This document shows, piece after piece, positions 19,769-50,753 of a stretch of 64,000 bases of DNA (positions are counted from its first letter, which is position 1; each line of letters opens with the position of its first letter). The DNA is from Rugalucina vietnamica (Eukaryota; Mollusca; Bivalvia; Lucinida; Lucinidae). Made by a program: the position numbers and the translations under genes. The stretch lies in contig OZ024874.1 in NCBI GenBank assembly GCA_964017185.1, positions 49,752,856 through 49,816,855 of the forward strand, read 5' to 3'. The notes beneath the pieces were generated by a model. That model was not told the origin of the DNA and made no database searches. It was given only the letters and a program-made list of their open reading frames with translations.

Positions 19769-19775
19769 TGTGCAT

Positions 19776-20102: not shown

Positions 20103-21114
20103 TATGGTGGCTTGTTAGTGCCATTTCGTCTTTTCGTTATTTCGCAGCGAAATAACGCCACGCGAAAAGACGAAAAGACGAAATAACGCCGCGCGAAAAG
20201 ACGAAAAGACGAAATAACGCCGCGCGAAAAGACGAAAAGACGAAATAACGCCGCACGAAAAGACGAAAAAACGAAATAACGCCGCACGAAAAGACGAAAA
20301 AACGAAATAACGCCACACGAAAAGTCGAAATAACGAAATTACTGCACAAAAAGACGAAATAACGCCATGCGAAAGAACGCAATTTTATAGCCATCATAAT
20401 GGCGTCTTTTCCAGTGCCTGTTTTCGTTATTTCGTCTTTTCGTGTTGCGTCTTTTCGTTATTTCGTCCTTTCGTTATTTCGACTTTTCGTTATTTTGTCT
20501 TTTCGCGTGGCGTCTTTTCGTTTTTTCGTCTTTTCGCGTGGCGTCTTTTCGTTATTTCGTTATTTCGCGTGGCGTCTTTTCGTTATTTCGTATTTTCGTT
20601 ATTTCGTCATTTCGCGTGGCGTTATTTCGTTATTTCGTCCTTTCGTTATTTCGTCTTTTCGCGTGGCGTCTTTTCGTTATTTTGTCTTTTCGCGTGGCGT
20701 CTTTTCGTTATTTCGTTATTTCGTCATTTCGCGTGGCGTCTTTTCGTTATTTCGTATTTTCATTATTTCGTCATTTCGCGTGGCGTTATTTCGTTATTTC
20801 GTTCTTTCGTTATTTCGTCTTTTCGCGTGGCGTCTTTTCGTTATTTCGTCTTTTCGCGTGGCGTCTTTTCGTTATTTCGTCTTTTCGCGTGGCGTCTTTT
20901 CGTTATTTCGTCTTTTCGCGTGGCGTCTTTTCGTTATTTCGTCTTTTCGCGTGGCGTCTTTTCGTTATTTCGTCTTTTCGTCTTTTCGCGTGGCGTCTTT
21001 TCGCGTTTTAAAATAGATAGATGATAATAATCTATACCTTTGGTGACCTTTATTATAATAAATTTGTCATCTTGTCTTTATGTTAAATCGACACCATTGT
21101 AGTATTTTAAATAC
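20103..21114 (+). repeat. Left TIR of element 1: bidirectional 31-bp arrays
   Basis: After TATGGTGGCTTGTTAGTGCC comes a short palindrome (CGTTATTTCGCAGCGAAATA), then an array of CGCCGCGCGAAAAGACGAAA-type 31-bp units (20146-20340), a unique spacer (20341-20415), and a longer array in the opposite orientation with GCGTGGCGTCTTTTCGTTAT units (20420-21012). The end piece contains GATAATAATCTATACCTTTG. The arm can therefore fold on itself as well as pair with the other TIR. The 31-bp period lacks stops in all three plus-strand frames, creating long false proteins rich in F, R, S and V. Confidence 0.88.
21109..21114. other. Left target duplication of giant element 2 (AAATAC)
   Basis: Repeated at 34336-34341; single copy in the empty equivalent at about 21877-21882. 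Confidence 0.88.
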
Positions 21115-21862
21115 TATGGTGGCTTGTTAGTGCCATTTCGTCTTTTCGTTATTTCGCAGCGAAATAACGCCACGCGAAAAGACGAAAAGACGAAATAACG
21201 CCGCGCGAAAAGACGAAAAGACGAAATAACGCCGCGCGAAAAGACGAAAAGACGAAATAACGCCGCGCGAAAAGACGAAAAAACGAAATAACGCCACGCG
21301 AAAAGTCGAAATAACGAAATTACTGCACAAAAAGACGAAATAACGCCATGCGAAAGAACGCAATTTTATAGCCATCATAATGGCGTCTTTTCCAGTGCCT
21401 GTTTTCGTTATTTCGTCTTTTCGTGTTGCGTCTTTTCGTTATTTCGTCCTTTCGTCCTTTCGTTATTTCGACTTTTCGTTATTTCGTCTTTTCGCGTGGC
21501 GTCTTTTCGTTTTTTCGTTATTTCGTCTTTTCGCGTGGCGTCTTTTCGTTATTTCGTCCTTTCGTTATTTCGTCTTTTCGCGTGGCGTCTTTTCGTTATT
21601 TCGTTATTTCGTCATTTCGCGTGGCGTCTTTTCGTTATTTCGTCCTTTCGTCTTTTCGCGTGGCGTCTTTTCGTTATTTCGTCTTTTCGCGTGGCGTCTT
21701 TTCGTTATTTTGTCTTTTCGTTATTTCGTCTTTTCGTTATTTCGTCTTTTCGCGTGGCGTCTTTTCGCGTTTAAAAATAGACAGATGATAATAATCTATA
21801 CCTTTGGTGACCTTTATTATAATAAATTTGTCATCTTGTCTTTATGTTAAATCGAAACCATT
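21115..21862 (+). repeat. Left TIR array of element 2
   Basis: Same design as 20103-21114 with fewer units in the second array (21441-21775). It ends in the same piece with GATAATAATCTATACCTTTG and AACCATTG. Confidence 0.88.
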
Positions 21863-22640
21863 GAAGTATTTTAAATACGGACCTTTTCAAAATAACTGAA
21901 TGGTTCATTCAATTTCATTTGAGCCGCGTCATAAGAAAACCGGACTTTTCCTGTACGAAAAAAGACGCAGATCAGCTGTGCAGTTATTTTCTCAGCTTGA
22001 TCAGTGCCATGTTTTCGCTAATCGGATAGTACAATAATCATGAATTTTAAGCTTCTAGCCTTCTTTTGAGATTGCACAGTCCGATGTGTGTCGGACCGGT
22101 TCGGAAACCCAAAGACCGGTTTTCTCGCTTCGTGGCTCATTTGTGACCGAGCAATAATAGAATTGAGCCGCCTCGTGGGAAAACCAACAATGTGGTTTCC
22201 GAACAGGTCCGACACAAACCGGCCTGTACAGTCACAGAAGATGGATAGAGACTGGAAATTTTGGATTTAGAAAGTCGAGAAATTGTCCTATCCATGTAGC
22301 GAAAACAAAGGCGCTGATCAGCTTCGCAGTTACTGCGAAGCTGATCTGTGCCTTTGGTTTCGCATATGCAAATATAAATTATACAAAATACAAATCAAAT
22401 ACAAATTGTATTTGGCAACGCATTACGAAAACTTGCCCATGCAACATACAGAGATTTTTTTCAGCTGTAAAAAGTAAAAATTACATTGGAAAATGTTTGA
22501 AGTTTTTAATATTTTTGCTCAAAACATACATTGTGGGTACACGTTATAACGGCCTCGGTGAGGCGGCTCTAACAAGTACACACAATGTTTGTTTTGAATC
22601 AAAAATAAGAAAAAATATAGGTATACCCCTGCGTACCCCA
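21863..22640 (+). repeat. Left subterminal block of element 2
   Basis: Begins GAAGTATTTTAAATACGGAC, then TAACTGAATGGTTCATTC, two family B copies (21920-22139; 22164-22370, truncated at its right end) and most of a family C copy (22428-22705). The same order recurs in element 1 at 34336-35060, showing it belongs to the giant family. Confidence 0.8.
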
Positions 22641-22710
22641 GTTTTGCTATATAAAAGTGGGATATAAGGGGATATACATTTCATGGACATGTTTTTCTGA
22701 TGTACAGTAG

Positions 22711-23709
22711 TGCGACATAATGTCAAGAATGGAGTTTTCTGAAGGTGTCCACTGACTGTAGTTCAGAATGTTGGCTACAATAAAAAGAATAGAAGTGTTA
22801 ACTGATATACAAGGTCATACTTAACCATAATAAAGTGAAAATAATCTAATTTAACAAAGCCACTAACAGTAACAGTTACTGTTATGCTGCATGCCATGTC
22901 AAATGCCATCAACTTTTGAAAGTTTTATTTTTATTACTTTAAGTCCTTATTATCCTATAATTTGATTAGATAATGCCATATATACAGTCAGACATAAGTT
23001 AAGCATCACCCTAACATTATTCTGGAGACTGTTTTGAGATAACAATTACTTCATAAAAACAATTATTCTGTGACGGTAGTTTACCAGTGTTGTTTCTTGA
23101 TCGGATAGAACTGTTAGAACGCCATTTGCCTTAAAGGCGGTTTAGATTCTATGGGACCATTTATACACAAACCCCTATTTTTGGCATATACCCTTATGCA
23201 CCAGTCATTTGTATCCCCGGCTCCCCTAGGGTCGGGGAATAACGGTAATTTTTAAAGCCCCGCTGAAAGCCCGGCACCGCGGGGCCAGATTTGTGGTAAA
23301 ATCCCTGCTAAAAGCCCCAGCTCCTCGGAGGCTGACCATAATGTGGAACAATAGCTGGGAGCTGTTCTGATGAAACTGAAGTATGAAAGAGGATCTTGAA
23401 CTCATGCGTGTAAAAAGTACAGGTACATTTGCAAATTAAATAAGGACCATAAAAGTAATCAAATTGATATCTAATTTGAAATAATGTGACCGTGCATTGA
23501 TGGGAAATTACCCCCCGGCACATCCTCGGCACTGCCTGGACTCATCAGACTGTTATACTCAGTATTTTATGGAATTTACAGGAATAGCCATCCAAACTTA
23601 TTCGCTTGTTTTTTAAGCACCACGTTTTCACTACATGTATATACATGTGTGGGTCATTATAAGAAATGGAGCAATCCTTGTCCCTGATGATTTTCTCGAA
23701 AGCGCTATG
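22711..23709. other. Unassigned interior of element 2
   Basis: No coding signal. 23210-23340 is GC-rich with CCCCGGCTCCCCTAGGGTCG and GCCCCGCTGAAAGCCCGGCA, probably a decayed palindromic repeat. Confidence 0.4.
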
Positions 23710-24892
23710 TCACGCCCGGTAAAGTGCAAATTGACCACCGCCGGTGGTCAACATAAAAAAAGTTGATATACATCCGGTGGTCGTTTTGAGCGTTTCCTGT
23801 TATTAGTTTTCGCGAGTTTGGTGGATGTGGAAGGTAAGATGTTTTTTGATCAAAAACGTATTGTAAAAATCAAAGAATGTCAGGCTATCAGTTTTTTGCC
23901 GTTGAATGTCTAGCCAAAGTGGTAGTTGAAAAAAATAAACCGTTTTACTGCAATCCTTTCCGGCCCGTTTGATTGGTAGTGAAAACGAAAGTAGAATCTG
24001 GCCAAACACAGGTTAAAATGCCCAGATCGTGCCTTTGCAAGCTTTCTGTAACCAATGATCGTTGCAGTTAGTTAAATGAACACTAAATTAGCTTTTCAGA
24101 CATAATTTTAAAATATTTCAAGCTTTCCTTTCAACACTTAGATCGATTTTGTACCGGCGGTCAACTTGAAGTTGCGGTGGTCGTATTGATCAATGGGGAT
24201 TACAATGTAAATTTTCATCGTGAGAGAAAGCCAGCAAAAATGCAACTTGATGTCGTTTTCTGTTAGGGGGCACGGCAACATTAATGGAGATGCATTCTAG
24301 ACACAACCAAATCCAAATCAATGCCGTCGGTGTCCTCATAATTCAATTTCGTTTGTCCATTAGCCATTCAGGCACATAGTTTAGCAATATCGGATGTATT
24401 TATTACTAATTTTTGGTAACCCCAACAATACAAATACTACCTCATGCAAGATGCATTGAATTTATATACATAATTCGCATTGACTCGAAGAAAACCCACT
24501 AGAATAACAGTGTGGTCAATTTGCAAACTAGGTGGTCAATTTGACCTTAAAATGAACAATTTTGAAATGATTTACTGTCCAATTTGAAAAATATTGAAGG
24601 ACATGCCTGCTGTTTAATGTTGAGCAGGCTCAGTCTTGCATATTCGACAATTATAGGAGTACACTAAGCAAAGCGTTCGTTGTGTTGTTCGTATGAAATC
24701 TATCTCATGTTTTGCAATATCAATTCTTTGAATATGTAAAGGTGAATAATCACGTGGTTTATATCAATTATATCAGATGGTCTTCGTGAACAACAGCTTG
24801 TGAATTGCTGGTGCCAATAGATTCTGTATTAGCTTGTGCATAGCTATGGTCTATCATAATCAAACTTCGTTTTGATTTCTTTGGAGTGCTAT

Positions 24893-26060
24893 TATTATTA
24901 TTATTATTATTAACAATATTTAAAGAGGGTAAGCACATTTAACCTTACGGCTATTCTACCTTGTGGCCCTCTAAAACAAATAAATTACAACAACATATTT
25001 ACAATATATACACAGTATAAAAATGTTCGATAGTTTCGTTAAAGGGGCTGCTGTGAGACTAAAATATTCTTTATCACAGTTTTTATTGCTAGAGTTTAGG
25101 GAAAATGCATCCTGTTTTGTTGGTACATTATACCTTAGAGCCCAAGGGAGTGGCTAACATGTGGCGAAAACCAATGTCCAGACAGCATGCGCCACCCCGT
25201 GAGCTCATTGGTAGTATTTCTTAAAGTAGAGCTCCAGAACGAAACTAGATAGCAGGTCATTAGTTTTAAAAGGCGCATAAAACTCCTAGATAAAGGATAA
25301 AAGGTGCAAGCGAATTAAGAAATATACGCTTATAAATAATACATGTAAAATATGATGATTTGTTAAAAAAGTGATTATAAATGAAATTGCACAATATTGT
25401 CATCTAGCACATTTCTAAGTCTATTTTAAAACCACCAAGAGATTGTGAGTTTCTAAGATCAACGGGAAGTGAATTCCATAATCTCGGAGCTGAGACAGAG
25501 AAGGAACGGTCGTATTCTGTAGTTGTTGATCTCGGAACCGCAAGAGTGCCATTGGTCGATGATCTCAAGTGACGATCACGAGTTTCAGCTACTGGTTTTA
25601 ATAAATCAGTAATATACTGAGGCGTTTGGCCGTTAAGGGCTTTGTACGTAAACACAGCCTTATTATATGCTAGTCGTTCATTTATTGGTTGCCAACCAAG
25701 TTCATCAAACATGCTAGAGGATGGGGTACTATAATCTGTTTGCAAAATGATTTGAGCGGCGCGCTTTTGTGATTTTAATATTCTTTCCAGATTAGCCCCA
25801 GTTGTTCCTGACCATGTGATGGACCCATAGTCTATTAGCGGTAGTATGCAGCCCTGATAAAATTGCTTTAAAACATCTACTGAGACATAATAGGCTAGTT
25901 GGAACAAGAGTGATATCTTAGAAGAAAGAGAGGAACATAAATTGTCAATATGCGCTGACCACGAAAGTGTATTATGTATTAGCAAACCAAGAAGTTTTTG
26001 TTTAGAAACATTTGCAAAACTATGACCATCAATCTTTAATACGGACTTAATACTTTTGAT
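24893..26060 (-). mobile_element. 5'-truncated CR1/L2-like LINE in the MULE-like loop
   Basis: The minus strand encodes the C-terminal end of a non-LTR reverse transcriptase. The open frame through 25404-25985 includes LLGLLIHNTLSWSAHIDNLC, the thumb-region phrase ILPLIDYGSITWSG and the terminal SAPRLWNSLPVDLR, all typical of bivalve CR1/jockey-clade LINEs. RT catalytic boxes are missing. The 3' untranslated part runs to an (ATT)n tail at 24893-24912. Its 5' edge lies near 26060, where the frame continues without a stop into unrelated basic sequence, making a chimaeric frame. Confidence 0.8.
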
Positions 26061-26312
26061 TTGGTCCCTGTTTTTTATGTTTTTCTTCTTAGGAAATCCG
26101 AACTTTCCTTTCGGTGTATAGATTTTAGGACAAATTGTCTTTTGGGGTGAACCAATAGCTCTATAGGGTCTTGAACTGTATTTTGGCTTTTTCTTAGATG
26201 GCGATTTGAACGGACTCTGGACAACGTCTTGGATTTCCTGTCCACGCCACAGATAAGGTTATTTGTTCGTCAGGTAACGACGCTTGGTTCGTTTCCCTTT
26301 AAATCGACCCAT
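26060..26312 (-). pseudogene. Basic reading frame with one internal stop, fused to the LINE
   Basis: From an ATG at 26312 the minus strand reads MGRFKGKRTKRRYLTNK then TAA (26259-26261). The same frame continues open for 285 more codons, through PYLWRGQEIQDVVQSPF, a lysine-rich stretch (KSPSKKKPKY, GKFGFPKKKN) and on into the LINE. The upstream 80 residues do not look like LINE protein. They may be the start of a protein encoded by the MULE-like element, interrupted when the LINE landed, or a chance basic frame. I do not recognise a family. Confidence 0.3.
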
Positions 26313-27661
26313 CTGGAAACGTATAAAGGAAAATATAAGGTCAGTAGGCGCACCTAGAACAGACGAGGCCAGTTATTCGTCAGCATTAATACATGCATTC
26401 ATTCTACACTTTGCAGTGGACAATCACGTGATCTCGACTCGTTTGAACTAGCGTGTGGGCTTAACCAGCGAGCCAATCGACTACTGGCAAAATCCAGAAA
26501 CATTATGAATCTATTATTCCAACTGCTCGTGACAGTATGATGAAGAGGTACATGCATGTGTAATTTTACACGTCAATTCATTTAACATTGACAATTTTAA
26601 TATGAACAATGTTTCTAAATATTTCGTTTGAAATTGATATAAACCACGTGATTATTCACCTTTACATATTCAAAGAATTGATATTGCAAAACAGGAGATA
26701 GATTTCATACGAACAACACAACGAACGCTTTGCTTAGTGTTACTCCTATAATTGTCGAATATGCATGACTGAGCCGGCTCAACATTAAACAGCAGGCATG
26801 TCCTTCAATACTTTTCAAAATGGACAGTAAATCATTTCAATAGTTTGCAAATTGACCACACTATTATTCTAGTGGGTTTTCTTCGAGTCAATGCGAATTA
26901 TGTATATAAATTCAATGCATCTTGCATGAGGTAGTATTTGTATTGTTGGGGTTACCAAAAATTAGTAATAAATACATCCGATATTGCTAAATTATGTGAC
27001 TGAATGGCTAATGGACAAACGAAATTGAATTATGAGGACACCGACAGCATTGATTTGGATTTGGTTGTGTCTAGAATGCATCTCCATTAATGTTGCCGTG
27101 CCCCCTAACAGAAAACGACATCAAGTTGCATTTTTGCTGGCTTTCTCTCACGATGAAAATTTACATTGTAATCCCCATTGATCAATACGACCACCGCAAC
27201 TTCAAGTTGACCGCCGGTACAAAATCGATCTAAGTGTTGAAAGGAAAGCTTGAAATATTTTAAAATTATGTCTGAAAAGCTAATTTAGTGTTCATTTACC
27301 TAACTGCAACGACCATTGGTTACAGAAAGCTTGCAAAGGCACGATGAGGGCAATTTAACCTGTGTTTGACCAGATTCTACTTTCGTATTCACTACCGATC
27401 AATAGGGCCGGAAATGATTGCAGTAAAACGGTTTATTTTTTTCAACTACCACTTCGGCTAGACATTCAACGGCAAAAAACTGATAGCCTGACATTCTTTG
27501 ATTTTTACAATACGTTTTTGATCAAAAAATATCTTACCTTCCACATCCACCAAACTCGCGAAAACTAATAACAGGAAACGCTCAAAACGACCACCGGACG
27601 TATATCAACTTTTTTTACGTTGACCACCGGCGGTGGTCAATTTGCACTTTAAAGCGCTATG

Positions 27662-28460
27662 TATGTAGGAGGTTTGCATTCTCTTTCTTTAATATTATTA
27701 TCCGCCGCGCTTTACAAGAACCACACCAGATTTCACGTTTCCACAAGTGATGCACAAAGTGCTATTTTATTCTTTTCATTGCAAAAGAAGCTTGCTAATA
27801 ATCACATTTTCTGTTACCATCCAATGCATATTATGTTACTTAGGTCAAATTCAAAAACAATATGATTTATAAAGTGCTATTTAAGAGCGGCGGCACACAT
27901 ACATATAATATAGTGATGTCCCTGGAAAACGTATCAGTGCTGTCACAGTTATTAAAATCGATTTGGACCAGAGTTATGATCAAAACAATAACATTTTGTA
28001 TACACCACCAAGCTGAATAAGTAACGGTAAAAAACGTTTGAACAAATCGCTTTACTCCGTTCATATACCAAAAAGACATGTCAAAATCGGAGTGGGAATT
28101 TTACAACCATCGGTACTATCACGCGCATTTTGTCGCTTCTTGCAAATATCACATACATTTTAAGACCATGACTGAATTTCAGCTTAGGACCAGTTAGAAT
28201 AGACATGCAAAATTTTTATTCTGCATTCTGTTGTAAGTCAGTAGAATTAAATTTATGTGCGAAACACAGTACTACTACAGTCAGTACTATAACGGTCGTG
28301 ACAGTACTGATATATTTGTGACAGCACTGAGTTGACTTCTGTCAGCAGGCGTGGATTCAGGCAATTTCCTAGACTGAAAGGAGTTAGGTCGCTTTTCACT
28401 AGAGGGTCACAGCTACTTACACCAGCAGCAGCCAGGTTGCCATTTTATAATTTAAGGTGT
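27662..28460. other. Unassigned interior of element 2
   Basis: No gene recognised. It ends in a poly-G run at 28466-28481. Confidence 0.4.
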
Positions 28461-28530
28461 ATGTGGGGGGGGGGGGGGGGGGTGATACAAAACTTCAAAT
28501 TCAAATTTCTTTGTGGACCAGGGTATATCC

Positions 28531-28640
28531 AATTAGCCCCGAGGGGATGGTACTCCCATAATTATCATAATTATGGGAGTACCACTCCGGGGGGCTAATT
28601 CAGTATACTGTCTCAATAGTATTGACTATTGAGACAGTAT
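28531..28640. repeat. Two adjacent near-perfect palindromes
   Basis: 28531-28600 folds on itself (arms AATTAGCCCCGAGGGGATGG / CCACTCCGGGGGGCTAATT, core ATAATTATCATAATTAT). 28605-28640 is a second palindrome (ATACTGTCTCAATAGT / ACTATTGAGACAGTAT, 4-nt loop). Confidence 0.8.
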
Positions 28641-28993
28641 GTGTATGTAGCGCGATAAATGCCCTTTTTGCGTAGTCCACTCCAAATTAGATTACCCCTT
28701 TTTCAGTGGAAAAAATTTGAAGCGCACACTTTATACAGAAAAATCGCCTTTTTCTGTAAAACGCCATCATTTTCCTCGAGGGGTGGGAGGGGTAACTCGA
28801 GGTAATTCTGGTACGGATGTGCCGTTAAACCTACCAAATCAATATACATGTACCTCGAAAAAAGGGACCCGGTGATATACACACTACGGTACATGAAAAT
28901 ACGAAAATATTAAAATTCTTTGGAGCATGTGTCTTTTGTGTTTGTATATGTTGCATACCATTACGAAAATGTGTTGTTGCCCATGCAAGATAA

Positions 28994-29936
28994 GCCTCAG
29001 TCCCACTGCGCTTACGATCGCTTAAGATCGCCGTATTACGACCAGTTTAGGATCACATTTCTGAGATAATCACAGGTAAACTCAGTGGATCGCACGACCG
29101 ATCTGAAGAAATTTGGGGCGGTCCTCTGAAATAATCAGTTTTAGGGATCGATTTAAGGACCCACGACCATTCCAAAATATCGGATGCAGTAATTTAAGAA
29201 GTACGGATGTTTATGAGAAAATGATGCTTTATAGTATAATCTTGAAAAAGATAATATTAAGTATCTGAGATCATCCTACGACCGTTCCTAGCGTTCTTGA
29301 GCAATCGTAGGATTAAAATCCGTCGCAAGCGGTTTTTGACATGATCAAAATTCTGAAAACAATCGTAAGCAGGCCATATGACTAAAATGGGCGTGATATG
29401 CCAGAGATGTACCGTTAAATCTGAGTGAACACGTCCATTCATGTGAATTACGTAAAAACCGTTTGTTTTCTACAGTTGTTCAAAACTAACGATGTCGTTA
29501 GTTAACGTTTCGTTAAAATTTCAAACGTTAATATTACAAATACACTGTTATTGTTTGTTGAAAAAATGTGAGAATCCTTTCTTACATTTTTTCAACAAAA
29601 AATAATAGTGTATTTGTTACTTTTGCTGATATTTGCTTAAAAAAAATTATGTCTTAACGATATCGTTAAGCTAACGATGCTTTGAACAACTGGGTCCTGA
29701 TGTTTAAACGAGACTACAAGAATGATCGCTTCATCAGTTGAAAACTGTTTCACCACGTTTGGGCATATATAAGGCACTGTCTTTTAATCGAATATATTTA
29801 GCAAAATCGTAGGATTGTGTTACATCCGAAAGGATCGGCCTTAAGATCATGAAAATTTCTAAAGAGTGTCGTAATATCCCCGAATCTAAAGACTATCTTG
29901 CGTTTCTGCAATCGTACGATGCAGTGGGACTGAGGC
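28994..29936. mobile_element. PIF/Harbinger-like MITE with TAA target duplication
   Basis: 943 bp with ends GCCTCAGTCCCACTGC and the exact reverse complement, flanked by TAA at 28991-28993 and 29937-29939. A 3-bp TWA duplication is the PIF/Harbinger signature. The interior is rich in CGATC/ATCGTAGGA words in both orientations. It contains a younger MITE (29474-29692) and no transposase. Confidence 0.78.
29474..29692. mobile_element. AGTTGTTCAAA-type palindromic MITE, copy 1
   Basis: Ends AGTTGTTCAAAACTAACGA and, reversed, AGTTGTTCAAAGCATCGTTA. Inner arms carry AATACACTGTTATT and AATAATAGTGTATT in inverted order. Second copy at 60812-61042. Confidence 0.75.
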
Positions 29937-30069
29937 TAAACATAGACTTCTTCAGCTTTAAAAAAAAAACGAAAATATATATATCTGTTTGTGTACACTT
30001 TACAACCGCCTCGCCGAGGCGGTTGCATATTTATTGTTGGTATTATGTTCTTAGCAAAGGCACATAAAT

Positions 30070-31224
30070 AAAATCTGTCAGTTATAAAACTCCTATACAA
30101 AATGCATATGGGCCACAACGTGAGAAAATGTACCTTCGAACAATTTATGGGTATTGGAAAAAACAATGTTACTTCGAATGTATAATGTTTTTAGAGTCTG
30201 TTAGTCTTTATTTGACCAGATTATTCAAGTTATTTTGTGAGTTATGACCAATTTACTGCATGAACCCTACAGACGTCATTGTCCTGAAAAATGACGTCAA
30301 AGTTGCGTAATACATTTCTGCATGTTAGTAGACCCTACACAATGTGGTGCCTTTGGTTAAAACTGTTTAAGCACTGGTCAGAACCTATTGTTAAAATAGA
30401 ATCTAATCACCCCTACATTCAATCTGTCGACATTATTTTGTCTATTTGTATGACGACACGGTTGCCATGGTTACCATTTAGTGATAGATATAGGAAACGT
30501 AAGAATATTATGGGCGAAAACAAGGGCAGATAACTCTAAATATTGAAAATGAATATGTTTTAAAACTCATTCACGTGGTAGCCCAGTGTTCAAATATAAC
30601 AAATATAGTGTTATTTCTAAAACGTGTATTACATGATTTTTCTTTTTTTCCGCTTTCTACTAGTAACGTCGGAATGTCCGAAGGTACATTTTGTCGCATT
30701 GTGGTTCATATAGTGATAACCATATGCATTCATATGCATAAAATACAACCGGGTGCAATTTCAATTTCTTCCACCTCGAAAGAAGGGGCAAATTTGCACC
30801 AGGGTGATTAAAAAACCGTTTACATGACATAAAATTCACACAGAGTGCAAATTTGCACCCGGAGTGCAAAATACACCCAGGTACAAATGTTGCATATGAA
30901 CACGGCTAATTCTTGTCCAGGAAAGTGTGGTTAGAATAAATGACACAGCAGTATCGACATAAACTAAACTGGTTGCCGTGTACGCTAAAGAAGAATACAA
31001 ACTATGTAGACGTATTATAAATGCTCAAATAATTCAAGATTTTTAAGAACATATTTCCACAAAAATAGGCGATATTTCCTCTGATGAACAGGGTATTAAA
31101 TTGTCCCCGAAATAGCCAATAGGCGTAAAGCTTTTACGTACTCGATCTTATTTTGAATGCAATGAGAGATAAACTGATGTTTGCATAGTCAATATCCTTT
31201 AAAGTGTATCAAGATTTGTTAGAC
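30070..31224. other. Unassigned interior of element 2
   Basis: Three short plus-strand frames (30291, 30575 and relatives) have no recognisable domain. 30745-30900 repeats GTGCAAATTTGCACC-type words in both orientations, possibly a small palindromic element. Confidence 0.4.
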
Positions 31225-37097: not shown

Positions 37098-37099
37098 GG

Positions 37100-37330: not shown

Positions 37331-37372
37331 ATGAAATGTTTTTATTCCTTACCATCAGACAGCTTTGGCGTT

Positions 37373-38420: not shown

Positions 38421-38424
38421 GTTA

Positions 38425-39530: not shown

Positions 39531-39539
39531 CCCATCAAT

Positions 39540-39840: not shown

Positions 39841-40899
39841 TCTCTTTCCTTCTTTCTATATATACTGCAGCACCCTCTCGCGAGGATTATGTTTCGTTTC
39901 ATTATAGACTTGTTTCTTTCTTTTCTTTGATACTGAGTCGATCAATTTCTGATCATCACCTCAGAATATTGAATTGCATAACATAAGACAAAACTTTCTA
40001 GCAGACAGCTAAATATTGCATTGATTTCGCTGAGTACAAGCTATTCTCATCTCATAAAATTGTGCATTGCAGTCCGATATAAAGAATGTCAATGGAATGA
40101 CAGAAGAACAAAGAATAAAGTATAATCTGTTAATCGCATTGTCGCCCTTGGCTCTGCGTGCACAGATGTCAATTATAGACCGACTTCGATCGGAGACTTT
40201 TATGCTTCGATACACATCAATTTGTCTGATGTCATTTCCCTGATATCATAGTTCTGAATGGTTTCGCCGGACCATGTATGACCAGGGACTGTTAACTTGG
40301 CAGTTCCCTGGTATGACCAACAGTGTTGAAAATATTTCCTGGTCCTTTATAATAATACATTTGATTAATCGAAAAACGATGATCGGGCGGGGGGGGGGGG
40401 GGGGGTTGTTACTTTTTCTTGTTTCTTTGATGCATTTTCTCATGTTTTTCAATCCTCTGAAATATTCTCTCTTCTTTATTTTGAAATTTAACAAATACAA
40501 GACGGTTGACCATGGGCGCCGCCATATTAGCTTCCATATATACCAACCAAACATTGTTCGACCTTCCGGGACTAGTCTATGGTCTAAAATCGAAGTCCCT
40601 CATTCTGTCAGCTAAATAATAATTTGAGGGGTTGAGAAGTTTTCCATACGCTATATTAACATTGGTAATCTTTAACCAATAGATCTAGCCCTACTGTTCC
40701 CTTCCAGATGTTGGCTTTGGTCAATTAAAGTGGCCGCATGCAGTTTTATAAGGGGGGGCGTCTTCTCAAGTCAACGTAATAGTTGAGTATATCAATATAT
40801 TCCACCTTAATTTCTGCTGTATATACCCTGCATACTCTTTCTTTCGTTTCAAAAATTTCAATACTGATTGCATAACATAAGACAAAACTATCAGATATT
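39841..40899. other. Unassigned; poly-G run and a repeated motif
   Basis: Poly-G at about 40389-40405. GAGTCGATCAATTTCTGATC and GCATAACATAAGACAAAACT around 39935-39995 recur at 40866-40890, 41520 and 54270, a small dispersed repeat. Confidence 0.4.
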
Positions 40900-41492
40900 T
40901 AAAGCTAGTATCTCACTGGCATGCAAATTTCTGGCGACTGTTTTGCGAATTTTGTCGCGGACTTTCACACAACATTCGTACCAGTGTTGCACGAGTGTCA
41001 CAAGTATTTCATGTGTCGCGAACTGGTCAGGAAGTTTTTAAACTTGTTTAAAAATTTTATGCGAGTTTTTTCACCAAAATATTTTGCAAGACTGTCACGC
41101 TACTCGTGGGACGTTCGTGGGAGTGTCGCAAACTTGTCATCGCAAAACTTTGGCAAATTTACAATGCAAAATTTTTGCGACGCTCGTATGAATGTCGTGC
41201 GAGTGTGGTATGAAGTTCGCGTAACAGTCTTGAGAAAAAAATGCAAACACCTCGCGACTATCTGGCGAGAAAATAAAACTAAGCAACATTCATTCCAATG
41301 TCACGCAACTGTTATACGAATGAAAATAAGCTACATTCGTGGGAAAGTCGGGAGACACTCTCATGAATGTCTCGTGACTGTCGTGCGACAGTCGCGAGAT
41401 ATATTTTCAAAATTAGATTGAAACTCCCGAATGTGGCAAACTATTCACGAACTAGTCTCCAGTTGTCGCATTCCAGTGAGATAGGGGCTTTA
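40900..41492. mobile_element. TIR MITE saturated with TGTCGCGA-like words
   Basis: Ends TAAAGCTAGTATCTCACTGG and, reversed, TAAAGCCCCTATCTCACTGG. TA or TTA-type target site; exact duplication not resolvable. The interior repeats CGCGACTGTCG/ACGAATGTCG words on both strands, which leaves one long open frame (40921-41421, 166 codons) that I regard as chance. Confidence 0.7.
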
Positions 41493-42217
41493 GCGGATAT
41501 ATCTTTTTTTACGGTTTACTGAGTCGATCAATTTCTGACCATTACCTCAGGAGCTGTGGAATACCAGCTGTTTGACTGCTGAATGCTGATCACTCTTGGA
41601 TCAGCTCTAGCAGTGAATTGTTGAGTAATAATTTACTGTTTGGAGATCAGTAAAGAGGATCAAATCACAAGCACATATTCTTACAACTGACCAAAAAACT
41701 GAATAATTACTTAACAATTCACATGTACTTAAGCTGATCTATTACGATTCTAACACACAATAAATGGAATAAGTCACTGAAAACGTCAATATCGTTCAGC
41801 TTTCCGCAATTGCATTGTAGATATCTCCGCCAAATATTTGACTGTTAAGCAGGTATTTACACATTTATTGCGTTTTTTATGCTCTAAAACCACGTTACCC
41901 CGTCGAACGCTGCTTGATGGAATAGCTGATATCACAGAAAGCGCAAAGTAATTACGCTTATTGGCTCAGTGAAATTATTGCACAATATTATAACACGTGT
42001 ATTATAGGTGAGGTGTGTTAGAATTATCATATGATGTTGTTATTTTCCAGTGTATTAAGATTCTCTATTTGTTTTTCTATTTTGTAGTGATTCACAGAGG
42101 TTAAAAGTACTGTAGTTAGACTGGTGAAAGTTACAGAGTAATTTGGGTAAGTTTTGTTTACTATCCTTTTAACCTTGGAATGAAACATTGAAACATACAG
42201 CTATGGTCTTTAGCCAT
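41493..42217. other. Unassigned
   Basis: 41600-41720 holds inverted GTGAATTGTTGAGTAAT and AATTACTTAACAATTCAC words. No gene recognised. Confidence 0.4.
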
Positions 42218-42490
42218 CATTATGAAAACTTTACCATGGATACAAATTCATACAATATACATCTCTTAGATCCTTTTCAGCCGTAAAAATTGAAAATTTC
42301 ATTGGAAAAATATTGATATTTTTTCTCAAAACATAGGTTGTGGGTACATGTTAGAACCGCCTTGACTAGGCATTTCTAACACCCACAATCTATGTTTTGC
42401 ATCAAAAATAAGAAAAATAGGTATACCGCCTGCAAACTCCAGTTTCTCTATATATAGAAGTGGGGTTTATGGGGGTATACATATCATTGA
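42218..42490. mobile_element. Family C MITE, diverged hairpin
   Basis: ATAGGTTGTGGGTACATGTT and the partner arm CACCCACAATCTATGTTTTG; the central GC stem is mutated. Confidence 0.7.
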
Positions 42491-42613
42491 TATATTATTT
42501 CTGATGTTATGCAAGATATTTAAGTTTTTCAGTGATAGTAATGTTACATTGATTACGAAGCATTAATCCCACCCCAGCATCTTGCATTAATTTAATAAAC
42601 TAGTAAATTTTAC

Positions 42614-44065
42614 CCGTCGAGAAGGACCTGGGAGAAGCAGGGGAACAAACAGAAAAAAAAAATTTATAAATTTGACCTTTGACTTCGATGATCTTGACCC
42701 AATTGGACCCATAAATCTTAATCAGGGATCAACCTGTATACACTCACCAAGTTTCATGCAAATCGGACCAAGGACTGCCGAGATACAGAAATTTGACCTT
42801 TGACCACGATGACCTTGACCTTTAAAAATTGAACCCCTCGAGCTAATATCCGGGGCCGCCCTCAACCTTCCCATCAAGTTTGGTGAAGATCGGCCCAAGG
42901 ACCTGGGAGAAGAAGGGGAACAAACAGAAAAAAAAACAACATAAATTTGACCTTTGACCTCGATGACCTTGACCTTTAAAAAAATGAACCCCTCAAGCTA
43001 ATATTCGGGGCCGCCCTCCACCTTCACTCCAAGTTTGGTGAAGATCAGCCCAAGGACCTGGGAGGAACAAACAAAAAACAACATAAATTTGACCTTTGAC
43101 CTCGATGACCTTTGACCCAATGGAGCCATAAATCTTAATCAGGGATCAACCTGTATATACTCACCAAGTTTCATGCAAATCGGACCAAGGACTGCCGAGA
43201 TACAGAAATTAGACCTTTGACCTTGATCTTGACTTTTAAAAAATGAACCCCTCGAGCTAATATCCGGGGCCGCCCTCCACCTTCCCACCAAGTTTGGTGA
43301 AGATCGGCCCAAGGACCTGGGAGGAACAAACAGAAAAAAAAACAAATTTGACCTTTGACCTCGATGACCTTTGACCCAAATGGACCCATAAATCTTAATC
43401 AGGGATCAACCTGTATACACTCACCAAGTATCATGCAAATCGGACCAAGGACTGCCGAGATACAGAAATTTGACCTTTGACCTCGATGACCTTGACCTTT
43501 AAAAAATGAACCCCTTGAGCTGATATCCGGGGCCGCCCTCAACCTTCCCACCAAGTTTGGTGAAGATAGGCCCAAGGACCTGGGAGAAGTTGGGGAACAA
43601 ACAGAAAAAAAAACATGACCAACAGAAAAAAAAAACACATAAATTTGACCTTTGACCTTGATGACCTTTGACCCAATTGGACACAAAAATCTGAATCAGG
43701 GATCAACCTGTATACACTCATCAAGTTTCATGCAAATCGGACCAAGGACTGCCGAGATACAGAAATTTGACCTTTGACCTCGATGACCTATACCTTTGAA
43801 AAATGAACCCCTCGGGCTAATATCCGGGGCCGCCCTCAACCTTCCCACCAAGTTTGGTGAAGATCGGCCCAAGAACCTGGGAGAAGTAGGGGAACAAACA
43901 GGAAAAAAACATAAATGTGACCTTTGACCTCGATGACCTTGACCTTTCAAAAAATGAACCCCTCAAGCTAATATCCGGGGCCGCCCTCTACCTTCCCTCC
44001 AAGTTTGGTGAAGATCGGCCCAAGGACCTGGGAGGAGTAGGGGAACAAACAAACAAACAAACAGA
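42614..44065. repeat. Tandem satellite carrying TGACCTTTGACC motifs
   Basis: Two interleaved unit types make a period of about 260-300 bp. One contains CATGCAAATCGGACCAAGGA, the other GCCGCCCTCAACCTTCCC and AAGTTTGGTGAAGATCGGCC. Each is separated by TTTGACCTTTGACCTCGATG, and GGGGAACAAACAGAAAAAAA tracts mark unit ends. About ten TGACCTTTGAC-type boxes occur (for example 42671, 42790, 42948, 43088, 43348, 43469, 43645, 43768, 43918). Repeat-derived minus-strand frames are not genes. Confidence 0.85.
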
Positions 44066-44121
44066 CAAACGTTGCTCAAATTATAGTATGATTTTATAGG
44101 GAGTACAATCATGACAATGGC

Positions 44122-44393
44122 ATTAGGAAAACTTGCCCATGATGCAATATACAGATTTTTTGAGCTTTAAAAATTGAACATTTTCAGCTGAAAAATTGAT
44201 ATTTTTCTTATTATTGCTCAAAACTTAGATTATGGGTACACGTTAGAATCGCCTTGGCGAGGCGTTTCTAACGAGTACCCACAATCTATGATTTGAAGCA
44301 AAAATAAGAAAAATAGGTATACCCCTGCATACCCCAGTTTTGCTATATGAAAGTGGGGTTCAAGGGGGTATACATTACACAGACATGTTTTCG
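44122..44393. mobile_element. Family C MITE
   Basis: Left end CATTAGGAAAACTTGCCCAT, hairpin around 44236-44275, right end GACATGTTTTCGTGATG. Confidence 0.75.
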
Positions 44394-44625
44394 TGATGGC
44401 GTAGTGGTAGAGTGTGGAACTCCGAATAAGAGGTCCTGGTTTCAATCCCCACATGCGTCACCTTGTTGTGTCCTTGAGCAAGACACATTAACTCCCTACA
44501 GTACTGGTTAAACCAAGGAAGAGTTTGATCCATCCTGACATGACTGAAAAATTGTACGCCTCTATACAAAGCAACAATAAGTTTCATACGGATATATATG
44601 GAAATAACCAGGAGTGTAATATTCA
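44394..44625 (+). mobile_element. tRNA-derived SINE
   Basis: GATGGCGTAGTGGTAGAGTG (A box region), CTCCGAATAAG (tRNA-Arg-like anticodon arm), GGTTTCAATCCC (B box), then TGTGTCCTTGAGCAAGACAC, a conserved SINE body motif, and GTTAAACCAAGGAAGAG. It abuts or overlaps the end of the family C copy. Confidence 0.72.
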
Positions 44626-45004
44626 TAATCATATTTTCAATGAAAATTTACATTGTTTTTACATACGTCATCAATTACGTCTCATATTCCCATAAAAGTG
44701 ATAATACATGTCATGTGTGTTCATAACACTTTTTATGACAGGAAATTATCCACTAGCATGTGTGAGACAAGCCAAGTTCTGCTTGCGAGTGTGCCAGGTG
44801 GTTTTTCTCGGGGTTCTCGTTTCTGCCCACATAAAGTACTGATTGGTCATAGATCTAGGGTACACGCTAGAACCGCCAAATATAAGGAAAAGTAGATATA
44901 CGGTCCAAGATGTAACAGCGGTTTTATAAGCTGTAACAATTTTAAATTTCAGTTAACACCTTTTGATAAAACGAAAATCTTTGATATTTATATTTTTGTT
45001 TTAG

Positions 45005-45256
45005 CGATGCCACTGTTGCTGAAACGAGTGCTGAAACCGCCACATCCCGATTTGTGCCGACAGTATCCGATAAGAACAGAAACACAAAGAAAAACACAAA
45101 CTGGGCTGCAGGGATCTTTTCCTCTTGGAGAAATGCTGCTGGACCTGAATTCGTGTCGGAAATACAGTTAATGACAGTGGAGCAGATGAACCATTATTTG
45201 AGCAGATTTGTGGTGGAAGCGCGGAAGAAAGAAGTCGAACCCTATCGCCCATGGAA
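45005..45256 (+). pseudogene. Crypton/DUF3504-like tyrosine recombinase, N-terminal exon
   Basis: The exon is bounded by acceptor TTTTGTTTTAG/CG and donor GGAAA/GTATGT. It encodes ATSRFVPTVSDKNRNTKKNT followed by NWAAGIFSSWRN and MTVEQMNHYLSRFVVEARKK, the DNA-binding N-terminal segment seen in animal DUF3504 (Crypton-derived, KIAA1958/ZMYM-like) proteins. An exon with plausible splice sites fits the intron-bearing animal Cryptons. It belongs with the catalytic piece at 45962-46462, from which it is separated by a family C MITE. Confidence 0.65.
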
Positions 45257-45714
45257 AGTATGTCGAGTTCAGTAGACAAAGCTCCAAAACGTACAAAGGG
45301 GGCTAAAAGGACTTGGAACTCGCTAACAAACGGATAAGACATTACAGCCTAAATGGTATGTATCTTTTTGTTATATTTTGTCATTGAATGTCATGCCAAC
45401 ATGGCTCGTATTTCAGAAACTGCGTTTGTAAATTCACCCTTTTGTGGAGCACCTGAAGGAAAATTTTCATTCTGTCACATTCAAAAAGTTGTTACATAAA
45501 TAGAATGGGGGGGGGTCCAAATTCCCAGAAGGGGTCTGACGGAAAATTTCAACATGGTGGGGGGGAGACCCCCTGTCCCCCCCTCTGGATCCGCCCATGT
45601 TTGGACAGTAAATATTATAGAAATAATTTGTGTAAACAAGTGGAACTGATGTCTGAATTAAATTGTACCAAATAGTCCGATTCTTAGCATTTATACGAAA
45701 AATTGAAATTGATA

Positions 45715-45945
45715 TCATTGCAGCTCTGTAAAAATTGAAATCTCATTAGAAAAATTATGATATGTTTATTTTATGTGCTCAAAACATTAATTGTAGGCAC
45801 ACGTAAGAACCGCCTCGCTGAGGCGGTTTTAACGAGTACCCACAATCTATGCTTTGGATAGGCACATCCCTGTAAACTCCTGTTTTACTGTATAAAATAG
45901 GGGTTCAAGAGTGTATTTATTTCACGGATATGTCTTCTTGATGGT
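45715..45945. mobile_element. Family C MITE between the two Crypton pieces
   Basis: Hairpin ACCGCCTCGCTGAGGCGGTT near 45808-45827; right end ACGGATATGTCTTCTTGATG. A G-rich repeat (CATGGTGGGGGGGAGACCCC) lies just upstream at 45552-45571. Confidence 0.7.
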
Positions 45946-45961
45946 GTGTTTTTTTTTTCAG

Positions 45962-46462
45962 ATGAGAAACCAATTGCAGATCTTTTAAGAAATATTTGGT
46001 GGCATTAAATAGAGGCGCTTTCTACCGAAGACCACTAGCTGGACTCCCTATACGCTATGGCAATCAAGTCATTGGAGTAAATAAACATAAAAACATGATA
46101 AAAGTAATATGGGCACATGCTGAACTTTCTGGGAATTATACCAATCATAGCGGTAAAAGAACGTGTGTGACACAACTCTACATGGCAGGGGTGGATGAGC
46201 ATTGAAGAAATAATGCAAAGGACTGGACATAGATCTAAGAAAAGTGTACAGAAGTATAAGGTTGCTTCAAGTGAAATTCAGAAGCGAGTAGCTGCTGTAT
46301 TAGATCCTCCAAAGGAAAATCTAGTGCCCTATGAAACCTAAGCTGGAACTAGCTGAACACAATTGCTGCACTCCGCCTGAGCAGTCTGATACAGAGTCTG
46401 GTAGGGCAGTGCTTGGCGAGAGACGGCCTTATTTCGCCAACTATAATGTTTATTTGAGATAT
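45962..46462 (+). pseudogene. Crypton/DUF3504-like recombinase, catalytic part, two frameshifts
   Basis: A pyrimidine-rich acceptor (T-run then CAG) precedes a frame with FKKYLVALNRGAFYRRPLAG, AELSGNYTNHSGKRTCVTQL and YMAGVDEH. A -1 shift at about 46201 is needed to continue with EEIMQRTGHRSKKSVQKYK, and a further shift near 46333 to reach KPKLELAEHNCCTPPEQ and a stop at 46462. The NHSGKRT box, RTGH box and the tyrosine of QKY are the tyrosine-recombinase landmarks. Two frame breaks make it non-functional. The central DUF3504 segment between the exons is missing or too decayed to see. Confidence 0.75.
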
Positions 46463-46810
46463 TAAATATTTGCTGAAGCCCACAGTTGTTGATATAGGTG
46501 ATTCTTAAGTTTATGATATTTTTGATGAAAAATCAAGGCACACAAATTTGATTGGATATAAACAAAATAATCAATTTTGACCAAAAAATCGATGTTTGTT
46601 ATCATAATTATTGGTTGATTTTATTTTGGTGACTTTGTTTACCTTTAGACTTTAATGAGGGTGACAAGAGACTTTAATGAGGGTTACAAAATGTTGCCTA
46701 TTTCTGAAACGTAGTCACACTTTTGATTGTATTGAGGGTTGATGAATAAATTGTTTAAATTCATGATTTTAATGAATACCCACAAAGTATGTTCTATTTG
46801 CCTTTTTTTA
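46463..46810. other. Unassigned
   Basis: AT-rich; GACTTTAATGAGGGT occurs twice at 46648-46690. No gene. Confidence 0.4.
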
Positions 46811-47560
46811 GCTCACCTGAGCCGAAGGCTCACATGGTGAGCTTATAGGATAGCCATGCTCTGGCTCCGTCCGTCACCTTTCGTCGTCGTCCGTCCACAA
46901 TTTCAAAGATCTTCTCCTCTGAAACCACTTGGCCAGTCAAAGCCAAATTTTACATGAAGCATCTATAGGAAGGGGGAACCAGTGTGTATATAAGAAATCC
47001 AGGTCACATGACCAAGATGGCCACTACGCCCATATATAGTAAAAACCCTTCAAAAATCTTCTCCAGAACCGGTGGACCGATTTATAGTGTATATGAATCA
47101 TGACCCTGGGATGACCTTGGCCTATTTTACGGCAAGGTCAACATAGGTCCCCAATGCATTTGAATGGAGAAAACTTTTAAAAAGTCATTTAAAGTGAAAG
47201 TCTTGCAGGAAATGGGCAGTAGGACTGAATATTAATGATTCTGAAAACAAAATTGGACCCAAGGGCCTCATCTGCCCCCACCCCAGGGTATTGTATATGT
47301 ATATTACCATAATATTCACACATCTTCTCCTGTGAAACTGCTTGACCAATCAAAGCCAAATTTTATGTGAAGCATCTATAGAATGGGGGAATCAATGTGC
47401 ATATAAATAATCTAGGTCACATTACCAAGATGGCCGCCATGCCCATATAATGGCAAAAACTCTTCAAAAATCTTCTCCAGAACTGGTGGACCGATTTCAT
47501 AGTTTGCTTTGGTCATAGTTTGATGTCTTCTTTTTTTCTCTTTATTTATTTTTTTTTTAA
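46811..47560. repeat. AGCTCACCTGAGC-type repeat, two related units
   Basis: Begins AGCTCACCTGAGCCGAAGGC. Phrases CAAAGATCTTCTCCTCTGAA, ACCAAGATGGCC and CTTCTCCAGAACCGGTGGAC recur about 410 bp later (47318-47500). A diverged relative lies at 48473-48640. This family is very common in bivalve genomes. Confidence 0.75.
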
Positions 47561-48033
47561 ATTTTATGACTACCCAATATAAATGAGAATTGTTACGTTA
47601 ACATCTAGTTTATCACACTGTAAATGCATCATGAGCAGTACATTGTTCTTAGAAAGTATAAACGTATGAGCTGTGTTATGAGAAAATTGGTATTTGGTTG
47701 TTCTGACCAGGTCCTGGGTGTTTTGACCAGATCCGAAAGCTATTATACAACCACAGAAAATAGCTCTAGATTTGGAAATTTGGGTTAACAAACATTATAG
47801 GGATTGAACAGCTATGCAAAAATCCAGTTTTTCAGATGACGCAGGTCAGTCAATACCAGGGAAGCTCTCACTCACACATACATGTACTATCAGGGCCTTT
47901 GATTTGATTTACATGTAATTATGCAATGAAAAGTAATCAGGCTGATTTGTTTTGTATGTGATTAAGCTGATCTGTGATTGTGTTTGATAGTTGGATGTTT
48001 GTATCAAATAATCAGGGTGTCATGTGTCGTATA
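47561..48033. other. Unassigned
   Basis: Nothing recognised. Confidence 0.4.
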
Positions 48034-48265
48034 TGAGCCTTCGCACGAGAAAACCAACAATCTGGGTTTCTTACCAGGCCTGACAAATATCTGTCTGTAC
48101 AGTCCTAGATTTAAGAAGCTTGAAAATTTGATTTAACAGGAAGAGGGATTTTACTATTCCTGTACTGAAAAGAAAGGCGCTGATCAGCTGTACAGTTACT
48201 GCACACCTGACCTGTGCCTTTGGTTTCGCATATGCAGATTGTTGGTTTTCTGATGCGGCGGCTCA
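48034..48265. mobile_element. Family B palindromic MITE, TA-flanked
   Basis: Begins TGAGCCTTCGCACGAGAAAA, ends TTTTCTGATGCGGCGGCTCA; TA at 48032-48033 and 48266-48267. Confidence 0.78.
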
Positions 48266-48472
48266 TATATGAAAATTAATTGTTCTTTAATGTTTATCAC
48301 ATGATTATTTTAATAAAGAATGAAACTTTCATTTTTGTTTGACTAAATCGAAAATGCAAAAGTGGGGAATGGCAGAAACTTACCAGGGAGTAATTAGTCA
48401 AATTATCCCTTGTATAGTTTCACAATAGACAGTATTTATTTTGCATTTTCTGTTGCAAAATTCAACGATTTT

Positions 48473-48640
48473 AGCTGACCTGAGCCAAATGCTCATGGAT
48501 AGCTTATAGAATGGTACTCGAGTCGGCGTGCGTCCGTACAGTCACATTTTCAAAAATCTTCTTCTCTGAAATCCCTTGGCTAACCAAAGCCATTTTTTTA
48601 TCTACACAAGCTCTAAGGGAGTGGTTATCGTTCGTACACA
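48473..48640. repeat. AGCTCACCTGAGC-type repeat fragment
   Basis: GCTGACCTGAGCCAAATGCT, AAATCTTCTTCTCTGAAATC. Confidence 0.55.
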
Positions 48641-48688
48641 CGGACGAACCATATAATAAGTTGCTTATTGCACTTTTAGCACCCTGCA

Positions 48689-48797
48689 CCTTGTGCATCT
48701 TCGGGTTTCTGACGTTGAACACTTAAAGGGTGCAATATTTTTCCTTGTGCATCTTCGGGTTTCTGACGTTGAACACTTAAAGGGTGCAATATTTTTC
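48689..48797. repeat. Tandem duplication, 54-bp period, two perfect units
   Basis: CCTTGTGCATCTTCGGGTTT... starts at 48689 and again at 48743, identical, so very recent or gene-converted. Confidence 0.9.
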
Positions 48798-49009
48798 TAC
48801 ATTATTATGGTAAGGTATTTCGGTATTTCAGATATCTAACACTCATGGTCATATCATATGAAACTTATTTAAGAATACTTTGGTGAGTTGTGAAATAAGT
48901 ACTCGTGTAAGATCATTTATTGCATAGCATTTATATTATTTTATTTTAAAGTTTTCATTGTTGTGTGTTTAGGATGCACGGCAATAGGTAAAACCTATTT
49001 ATTTCATAT

Positions 49010-49850
49010 TAATAAGTAACAAAGCAAGCTGAATGCACAATTTATGAACAGTTATATTGTAAAGATAGATGGCCTTCCCTTGTTCAGGTGTGTCAGTGTT
49101 TGATACTGTTGGCTGTCAGAATGGTTTCTGTTTAAACTTTCTGTTAGGCTGAAATTCATTTTCTATCACTGAGGTAGGCAGATTGTTGATATGTAGGTAC
49201 ACATTCAGAAATCTGTCTGTCAAATTTGACAGTTATAACAGTGTATTTTATAAAGTGGTGAATATTTAACATAAAGACAGAGTTACAGTTCGGGTCTCAC
49301 AAGGGGCACAAGCCAAGTTCTGCTTGCGGGTGTGCCATGTGTTTTATCCAGTTATTTTTTTTTATATTTTCGCCCATCTCATTTGAGATGAAGTTATCTA
49401 GTAAGGAACGTTTAGACTGAATGTAAAACAGATATACCCACACGAGGGCCTGTTCGGATAAAGAAAAATGTAATGACATGGATCAAAACCTCGAAGGTAG
49501 CAATAAAGTCAAGTGGCTAATGATATGTTGATTGGTCATGATTTATAAAATTTATTTTTGCTCGGTCACAAATGAGCCGCGACATAAGAAAACCGGTCTT
49601 CAGGTTTCCAAACCGTTCCGACACGAATCGGTCTATGCAATCTCAAAAGAAGGCTAGAAGATTGAAATTCATGTTTAAGAAGAAGAGAATTTGTATTATC
49701 CCATTAGCAAAAACAAAGGCACAGATCAAGCTGTGAGAGTACTGCACAGCTGATCTGCGTCCTTGTTTTCGCATAGGCAAAAGTCCGGTTTTCGATTTAC
49801 AATGGTGTCAGTTTAAATAAAGACAGGGCGACACATTTTGTTAAAAATAC
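49010..49850. repeat. Right subterminal block of element 1
   Basis: Matches 32641-33460 at about 95%, including AAGCCAAGTTCTGCTTGCGG and a family B copy (49573-49790). Confidence 0.82.
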
Positions 49851-50753
49851 AAGTCAGTAAAGGTATAGATTATTATCATGTATATCTATTTTTAAACGCG
49901 AAAAGACGAAATAACGAAAAGACGAAATAACGAAAAGACGCCACGCGAAAAGACGAAATAACAAAAAGACGCCACGCGAAAAGACGAAAGGACGAAATAA
50001 CGAAAAGACGCCACGCGAAATGACGAAATAACGAAAAGACGAAAAGACGCCACGCGAAAAGACGAAATAACGAAAAGACGCCACGCGAAAAGACGAAATA
50101 ACGAAAAGACGCCACGCGAAAAGACGAAAGGACGAAATAACGAAAAGACGCCACGCGAAATGACGAAATAACGAAATAACGAAAAGACGCCACGCGAAAA
50201 GACGAAATAACGAAAAGACGCCACGCGAAAAGACGAAATAACGAAAGGACGAAATAACGAAATAACGCCACGCGAAATGACGAAATAACGAAAATACATA
50301 ATAACGAAAAGACGCCACGCGAAATGGCGAATTAACGAAAAGACGCCACGCGAAAAGACGAAATAACGAAAAGACGCCACGCGAAAAGACGAAATAACGA
50401 AAAGTCGAAATAACGAAAGGACGAAATAACGAAAAGACGCAACACGAAAAGCCGAAATAACGAAAACAGGCACTGGAAAAGACGCCATTATGATGGCTAT
50501 AAAATTGCGTTCTTTCGCATGGCGTTATTTCGTCTTTTTGTGCAGTAATTTCGTTATTTCGACTTTTCGCGTGGCGTTATTTCGTTTTTTCGTCTTTTCG
50601 CGCGGCGTTATTTCGTCTTTTCGTCTTTTCGCGCGGCGTTATTTCGTCTTTTCGTCTTTTCGCGCGGCGTTATTTCCTCTTTTCGTCTTTTCGCGTGGCG
50701 TTATTTCGCTGCGAAATAACGAAAAGACGAAATGGCACTAACAAGCCACCATA
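49851..50753 (-). repeat. Right TIR array of element 1
   Basis: 31-bp array 49897-50450, spacer 50451-50560, short opposite array 50565-50705, then the tip GGCACTAACAAGCCACCATA. Mirror image of 20103-21114. Confidence 0.88.

Follow-up and report, generated by a model that had tools for sequence, protein, structure and literature searches.

At positions 20103..50753 of a 64,000-nt window of Rugalucina vietnamica contig OZ024874.1 (the window is the whole stretch of DNA analysed, and all positions count along it), 30,651 bp lie between two perfect inverted tips, which raises the question of whether one transposon of this size moved here as a unit. A sequence-only reading had taken the segment for a 30.6-kb giant terminal inverted repeat (TIR) transposon proven by an empty site in the same window, and the observations behind that claim were exact base for base. 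The outer tip TATGGTGGCTTGTTAGTGCC starts at 20103 (+) and its exact reverse complement ends at 50753, with TATATT on both sides. In the paralogue the two flanks join at 63411-63450 with one TATATT, at 63425-63430, and the joined flanks (19776-20102 plus 50760-51312) are 94.6% identical to 63103-63999 (831 positions match and 47 differ). The right-flank match extends ~690 bp beyond the insertion and past the window end. This comparison of filled and empty sites is valid for the outer ends and says nothing of whether everything between them moved together; therefore, the outer empty site is evidence for the outer ends only.

A search of the window with the 28-bp tip, allowing up to three mismatches, returned four matches, all perfect, at 20103 (+), 21115 (+), 34335 (-) and 50753 (-), compared with none in 100 shuffles, which excludes chance matches. 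The inner tips at 21115 and 34335 delimit a complete second element, A. It is flanked by a 6-bp duplication of its own, AAATAC, and an empty site exists for it too: when A's left arm is aligned to that of the outer element B, ...TATTTTAAATACGGACC... is present once, at 21873-21878. B consists of 20103-21114 plus 34342-50753 (17,424 bp), and the lengths of B, A (13,221 bp) and the second AAATAC (6 bp) add up to 30,651. The locus is thus two nested elements of one family and not one 30.6-kb element, since the inner tips, the inner duplication and the inner empty site are incompatible with a single unit. A inserted at AAATAC in B's left arm, later than B had inserted at TATATT. We regard the nest and the family as virtually certain. 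The features of the nest are as follows.

20097..20102, no strand: left 6-bp target site duplication of B, TATATT
20103..21114, + strand: first piece of B's left arm, with tip, 31-bp array, spacer and inverted 31-bp array (from tip search, arrays and alignment)
21109..21114, no strand: left 6-bp target site duplication of A, AAATAC
21115..34335, + strand: inner element A, 13,221 bp (from its own tips and duplication)
21873..21878, no strand: empty site for A, an uninterrupted AAATAC in A's own left arm (from alignment with B's arm)
34336..34341, no strand: right 6-bp target site duplication of A, AAATAC
34342..50753, + strand: second piece of B, with the remaining left arm, interior and right arm
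49895..50753, - strand: right arm of B with tip and arrays
50754..50759, no strand: right 6-bp target site duplication of B, TATATT
63103..64000, + strand: paralogous empty site for B, with a single TATATT at 63425-63430

The family was then followed through the genome (1.09 Gb in 47 contigs). In a first DNA search, 40 of 117 candidates were scored and all were 100% identical over 60 bp. The 20-bp tip, with up to two mismatches, matched 122 places (66 forward and 56 reverse), and a reversed-pattern control matched none. Pairing rests on the roughly 100 of these matches whose places were listed; it was done by position within 100 kb with 91 exact tips and one partner carrying one mismatch, the other eight of the nine listed one-mismatch tips being left out. 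Among the matches listed, this gave 34 facing tip pairs and left 24 of the 92 tips unpaired. An exact 6-bp duplication flanks all 34 pairs (17/17 in a first set comprising A, B and 15 pairs elsewhere, and 17/17 in a further set), so the description of the locus as a TIR transposon with 6-bp duplications held up. The longest exact flank match was 6 bp each time in the first set, and shuffled partners shared a duplication about 1 time in 17, which equals one fixed point per shuffle. The surroundings of 15 of the 24 unpaired tips were viewed, and at least three tips (L071, L072, L077) end abruptly within ~70 bp; for the others, a partner may exist that is diverged, more distant or outside the matches listed. 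The sequence-only reading had named tips without paired partners or 6-bp duplications as a ground for refutation; this mostly did not apply, given the 34 pairs, although these 24 tips have no listed partner within 100 kb.

Pair lengths range from 752 bp to 80,616 bp with a median of 11.3 kb, four exceeding 20 kb when the window nest is counted. A second nest of the family within itself lies at C5:8822405[8827065-8831522]8833688, with tips in the order +, +, -, -, an inner duplication GGTATG and an outer duplication TCAATT. We also observed a tip pair 80.6 kb apart at C1:14485643-14566258, with GTAGTA on both sides. Four further tips, L070 (C2:6078652), L074 (C5:72630319), L075 (C6:40486983) and L079 (C10:32658405), each have CGTATGGTGGCTTGTT directly before them, are near-identical over most of 150 bp upstream and carry a variant arm ~81-86% identical to that of L015. 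They represent a compound tip, which perhaps goes back to one insertion into a tip that was amplified afterwards.

Comparison of copies points to a much smaller unit. Two copies, L015 (9,261 bp) and L016 (9,228 bp), share 99.2% identity over their full length and lie between different duplications (GATTGT and GTTGAT), indicating that they moved recently; judging by sequence, copies of ~9.2 kb look like the intact form. The longer copies that were read contain extra insertions. Deletion derivatives also moved, since L009 and L010 (4.4 kb, 98.3% identical) have one common internal deletion at different duplications. At least one loaded form moved as well, because L013 and L014, which lie at different sites (AATACC and GTTTCT), share an insertion at one position, with 98% identity over at least 745 bp of the inserted sequence. 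Pairs of only 752 bp and 766 bp both have 6-bp duplications, so the arms alone suffice in cis. The earlier suggestion of a large and perhaps undescribed family therefore stands in part: the family is dispersed, with 122 tips in the genome, and probably undescribed, and its intact copies are ~9.2 kb.

The excess length of A and B comes from later arrivals, which are listed here.

23711..27650, no strand: insert of 3.9 kb in A that L015 and L016 lack
35065..37376, - strand: retroelement stretch in B, with a reverse transcriptase open reading frame (ORF) at 35763-37157 (RVT_1, expectation value E 4.1e-21)
38805..49009, no strand: 10.2-kb insertion in B (from comparison with 16 other copies)

The 9.26-kb copy L015 is matched by A over its whole length (100%) at 98.4-98.7% identity, and A has one extra insert of 3.9 kb. 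That insert bears 1.05-kb inverted repeats (23720-24769 and 26632-27651, 94.7% identical), and no Pfam family matched its ORF at 25407-26258 (-). The share of L015 covered by B is 50%, B having lost part of its interior and gained the reverse-transcriptase stretch and the 10.2-kb insertion. We considered whether the 10.2-kb segment was instead a deletion in A; this was ruled out because 12 of 16 other copies are continuous at that point, the remaining four being uninformative or deleted there, and the segment is thus an insertion in B. A 2-bp TA repeat at its edge is too short to settle the mechanism. A tandem array with periods of 151 and ~297 bp occupies 42622-44061 within this insertion. 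Later arrivals make up about half or more of the 30.6 kb.

The coding capacity of the family was examined through its ORFs. Among 118 ORFs of at least 58 amino acids (aa) in A and B, only RVT_1 exceeded its Pfam cut-off (among the best 25 of 42 families) and no transposase was found. The 69 ORFs of at least 45 aa in L015 matched eight Pfam families with a best E of 0.012, again with no transposase, and the ~9.2-kb intact copies have no long ORFs. B also matched QRICH1 at E 5.6e-4, but with 20.4 bits this match stayed under the cut-off of 30.8 and was not used. Since no transposase was found, the family is very likely non-autonomous, in agreement with what had been supposed from the window alone. 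Overall, the locus is in all likelihood a nest of two members of one non-autonomous family of cut-and-paste DNA transposons.

The arms of the elements are ~1.0-1.3 kb long and share one plan, in which a 45-bp tip is followed by a first 31-bp array and, beyond a spacer, by a second array in the reverse-complementary sense. In B's left arm, the arrays are placed as follows.

20148..20364, + strand: first 31-bp array, 7.1 copies
20403..20980, - strand: second array, 18.3 copies of a 31-bp period, running as the reverse complement of the first

Because the second array is reverse-complementary to the first, an arm is able to fold on itself. As single-stranded DNA, B's left arm reaches -233.1 kcal/mol; 20 shuffles averaged -130.5 (z -22.9), and none of them was as good. 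Long, internally repetitive TIRs of this kind constitute a foldback-type structure, a term that describes shape and not clade. The 31-bp unit is made of 7-8-bp words starting with CG, and CpG stands at 3.1-3.2 of expectation in the four arms, compared with 0.70-0.87 in four stretches measured elsewhere. Each of the six comparisons among the four arms gave 98.6-98.8% identity over the outer 347-378 bp; the inner parts are 83-84% identical between left and right within one element and 94-97% identical between A and B on the same side. Conversion or function may preserve the likeness of the outer arms, as this pattern suggests. For the Drosophila element Galileo, footprinting of part of the long arms, together with matching sites in the long TIRs, led its authors to propose many transposase binding sites (PMC3688188; statements from the literature here and below refer to excerpts of the cited papers). 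By this analogy, we give an even chance to the 31-bp arrays being multiple transposase binding sites.

Which superfamily the elements belong to was judged from their ends. IS3EU elements have ends of the form TA..TA and a target duplication usually of 6 bp, and 17 of their 45 known families were autonomous in 2022 (PMC10045372); in rust fungi they have TAYGG..CCRTA ends with 6-bp duplications (PMC12730594). All 17 copies retrieved with both ends have TATGG..CCATA, which fits the TA..TA rule and the fungal TAYGG..CCRTA form, and the duplications of all 34 pairs fit the usual length. We therefore probably deal with an IS3EU-like family, and IS3EU was among the candidates that had been named at the outset. 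In the mechanism we propose, a DDD/E transposase of the IS3EU kind would be supplied in trans by another element, would cut at the TATGG/CCATA tips and would join the cut ends to target DNA with a 6-bp stagger.

Several observations weigh against this reading. No transposase of any kind is tied to the family, and the superfamily placement draws on five plus five tip bases and the duplication length. Integrase-core genes of Pfam rva_4 have 134 matches in the genome; a comparison by script covered 87 places and put none of them inside a tip pair, the rest being compared by eye. One of the rva_4 copies, L080, has a 417-aa ORF that matches rva_4 (E 2.9e-34) and for which the PDB gave no relative at E up to 1. 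A TAYGG motif lying 64 bp ahead of the ORF was considered as an element tip and dropped, as the motif is in reversed orientation; with TAYGG on the inner side, the link between L080 and the tips was withdrawn. In addition, 24 of the 92 listed tips have no partner within 100 kb in that list, and for the second set of 17 pairs the interiors were read for three of up to 1.5 kb and for parts of three others. This motif from L080, TAYGGKGTACAGTGAATCTATAGG (1293-1511 of that locus), has 142 forward and 147 reverse places in the genome with up to two mismatches; among the matches listed (~100) the order is mostly minus then plus, often 2-5 kb apart, and it is probably another TIR family with CCTATAG as its outer end. 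Several of the many rva_4 genes are open and score equally at different places, pointing to another recently active element.

Among the alternatives, a foldback element of the Mutator or P superfamilies would account for the long, internally repetitive arms and the non-coding copies, a shape like that of Tetris and Galileo, and most described foldback elements have been assigned to Mutator (PMC4079207). We nevertheless consider it unlikely, because the duplications are 6 bp in 34/34 pairs, whereas those of Mutator are ~8-10 bp and Tetris, with 8-10 bp, was placed in Mutator partly for that (PMC4079207), and because the TATGG..CCATA tips match IS3EU.

That one 30.6-kb giant element transposed as a unit is highly improbable, even though the perfect outer tips, TATATT and the empty paralogue agree with it and other long pairs (24.6, 31.8 and 80.6 kb) each have a 6-bp duplication. 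The inner element is complete with its own tips, duplication and empty site, and A matches a 9.2-kb copy end to end, which would be impossible for the ordinary interior of a 30-kb unit. The 31.8-kb copy tells the same story: it covers 90% of the 9.26-kb L015 in seven blocks with long foreign stretches between them, in which long ORFs look like Gypsy and Pao retroelements by eye.

Polinton ends start with AG. No DNA polymerase, integrase or capsid family exceeded its Pfam cut-off in the ORFs of A, B and L015, which agrees with the earlier remark that no Polinton genes are visible and is alone insufficient against a non-autonomous derivative; the intact copies are moreover ~9.2 kb without long ORFs. 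We thus hold a degenerate Polinton/Maverick to be very improbable, although the 6-bp duplications of such elements (PMC10045372) and the long size would suit it. The chance that the pairing reflects segmental duplication or assembly errors is negligible: such repeats can confuse assemblies and 24 listed tips are unpaired, but 34 pairs have exact 6-bp duplications beside differing flanks, none longer in the first 17, and two empty sites lie in one window.

The preferred reading, a nest within an IS3EU-like non-autonomous family, has several implications. A nest can mimic a giant element, and outer tips, a duplication and an empty site are insufficient to establish joint movement. The family offers a good natural test of what long arms do: perfect tips and duplications are common to copies from 752 bp to tens of kb, and forms with internal deletions have spread as well. 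Confirmation of an IS3-type transposase would mean that a further superfamily had acquired foldback arms. That the arms stay so dense in CpG, in a genome with CpG near 0.7-0.9 of expectation, gives a testable link to DNA methylation. More speculatively, and with little expectation that it will prove right, we propose an IS3EU-like foldback lineage in which even heavily loaded copies would stay mobile by virtue of long, CpG-dense, multi-site arms and would carry nested foreign DNA along; in the boldest extension, some of the 24.6-80.6 kb pairs may have transposed at that size.

The window also contains a small, dispersed repeat resembling miniature inverted-repeat transposable elements, with a palindromic centre and copies 69-90% alike, at 19492-19770, 22421-22706, 34827-35064, 42274-42507, 44121-44398, 45726-45943 and 56655-56879, and an ORF with a C-type lectin domain at 9245-9742 (-) (Lectin_C, E 4.4e-21).

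The tip sequence had no match in viral or prokaryote sequence collections (0 and 0), and neither strand of it was found in full-text literature. In the same literature, as far as its excerpts go, no description of foldback arms in IS3EU was found, the co-mention of the two consisting of table labels for oyster satellites. The family is probably undescribed with respect to the full-text literature searched, Repbase and Dfam being outside the comparison. Known systems each share part of its features. Dada has 6-bp duplications too, but it lacks TIRs and targets small RNA genes (PMC3706591); it was ruled out because TIRs are present here, and the whole window gave 0 Rfam or transfer RNA matches. 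Tetris and Galileo of Drosophila resemble the family in their long, internally repetitive arms, length variation and non-coding copies (PMC4079207, PMC3688188). Tetris differs in its 8-10-bp duplications and an arm unit of ~220 bp compared with 31 bp here (PMC4079207), and Galileo belongs to the P superfamily (PMC3688188). Styx of Zymoseptoria, which has coding sequence in common with IS3EU, is similar in its 6-bp duplications, paired and solo TIRs and recent activity, whereas its TIRs are 36 bp and its new insertions are ~7.9 kb with coding genes (PMC10853768). IS3EU itself, with GingerRoot in the same lineage, has TIRs described as over 30 bp (PMC12730594), in contrast to the ~1.0-1.3-kb arms of 31-bp arrays and the lack of a detected transposase in this family; the two are alike in their TA..TA tips, their 6-bp duplications and the non-autonomous state of many IS3EU families.

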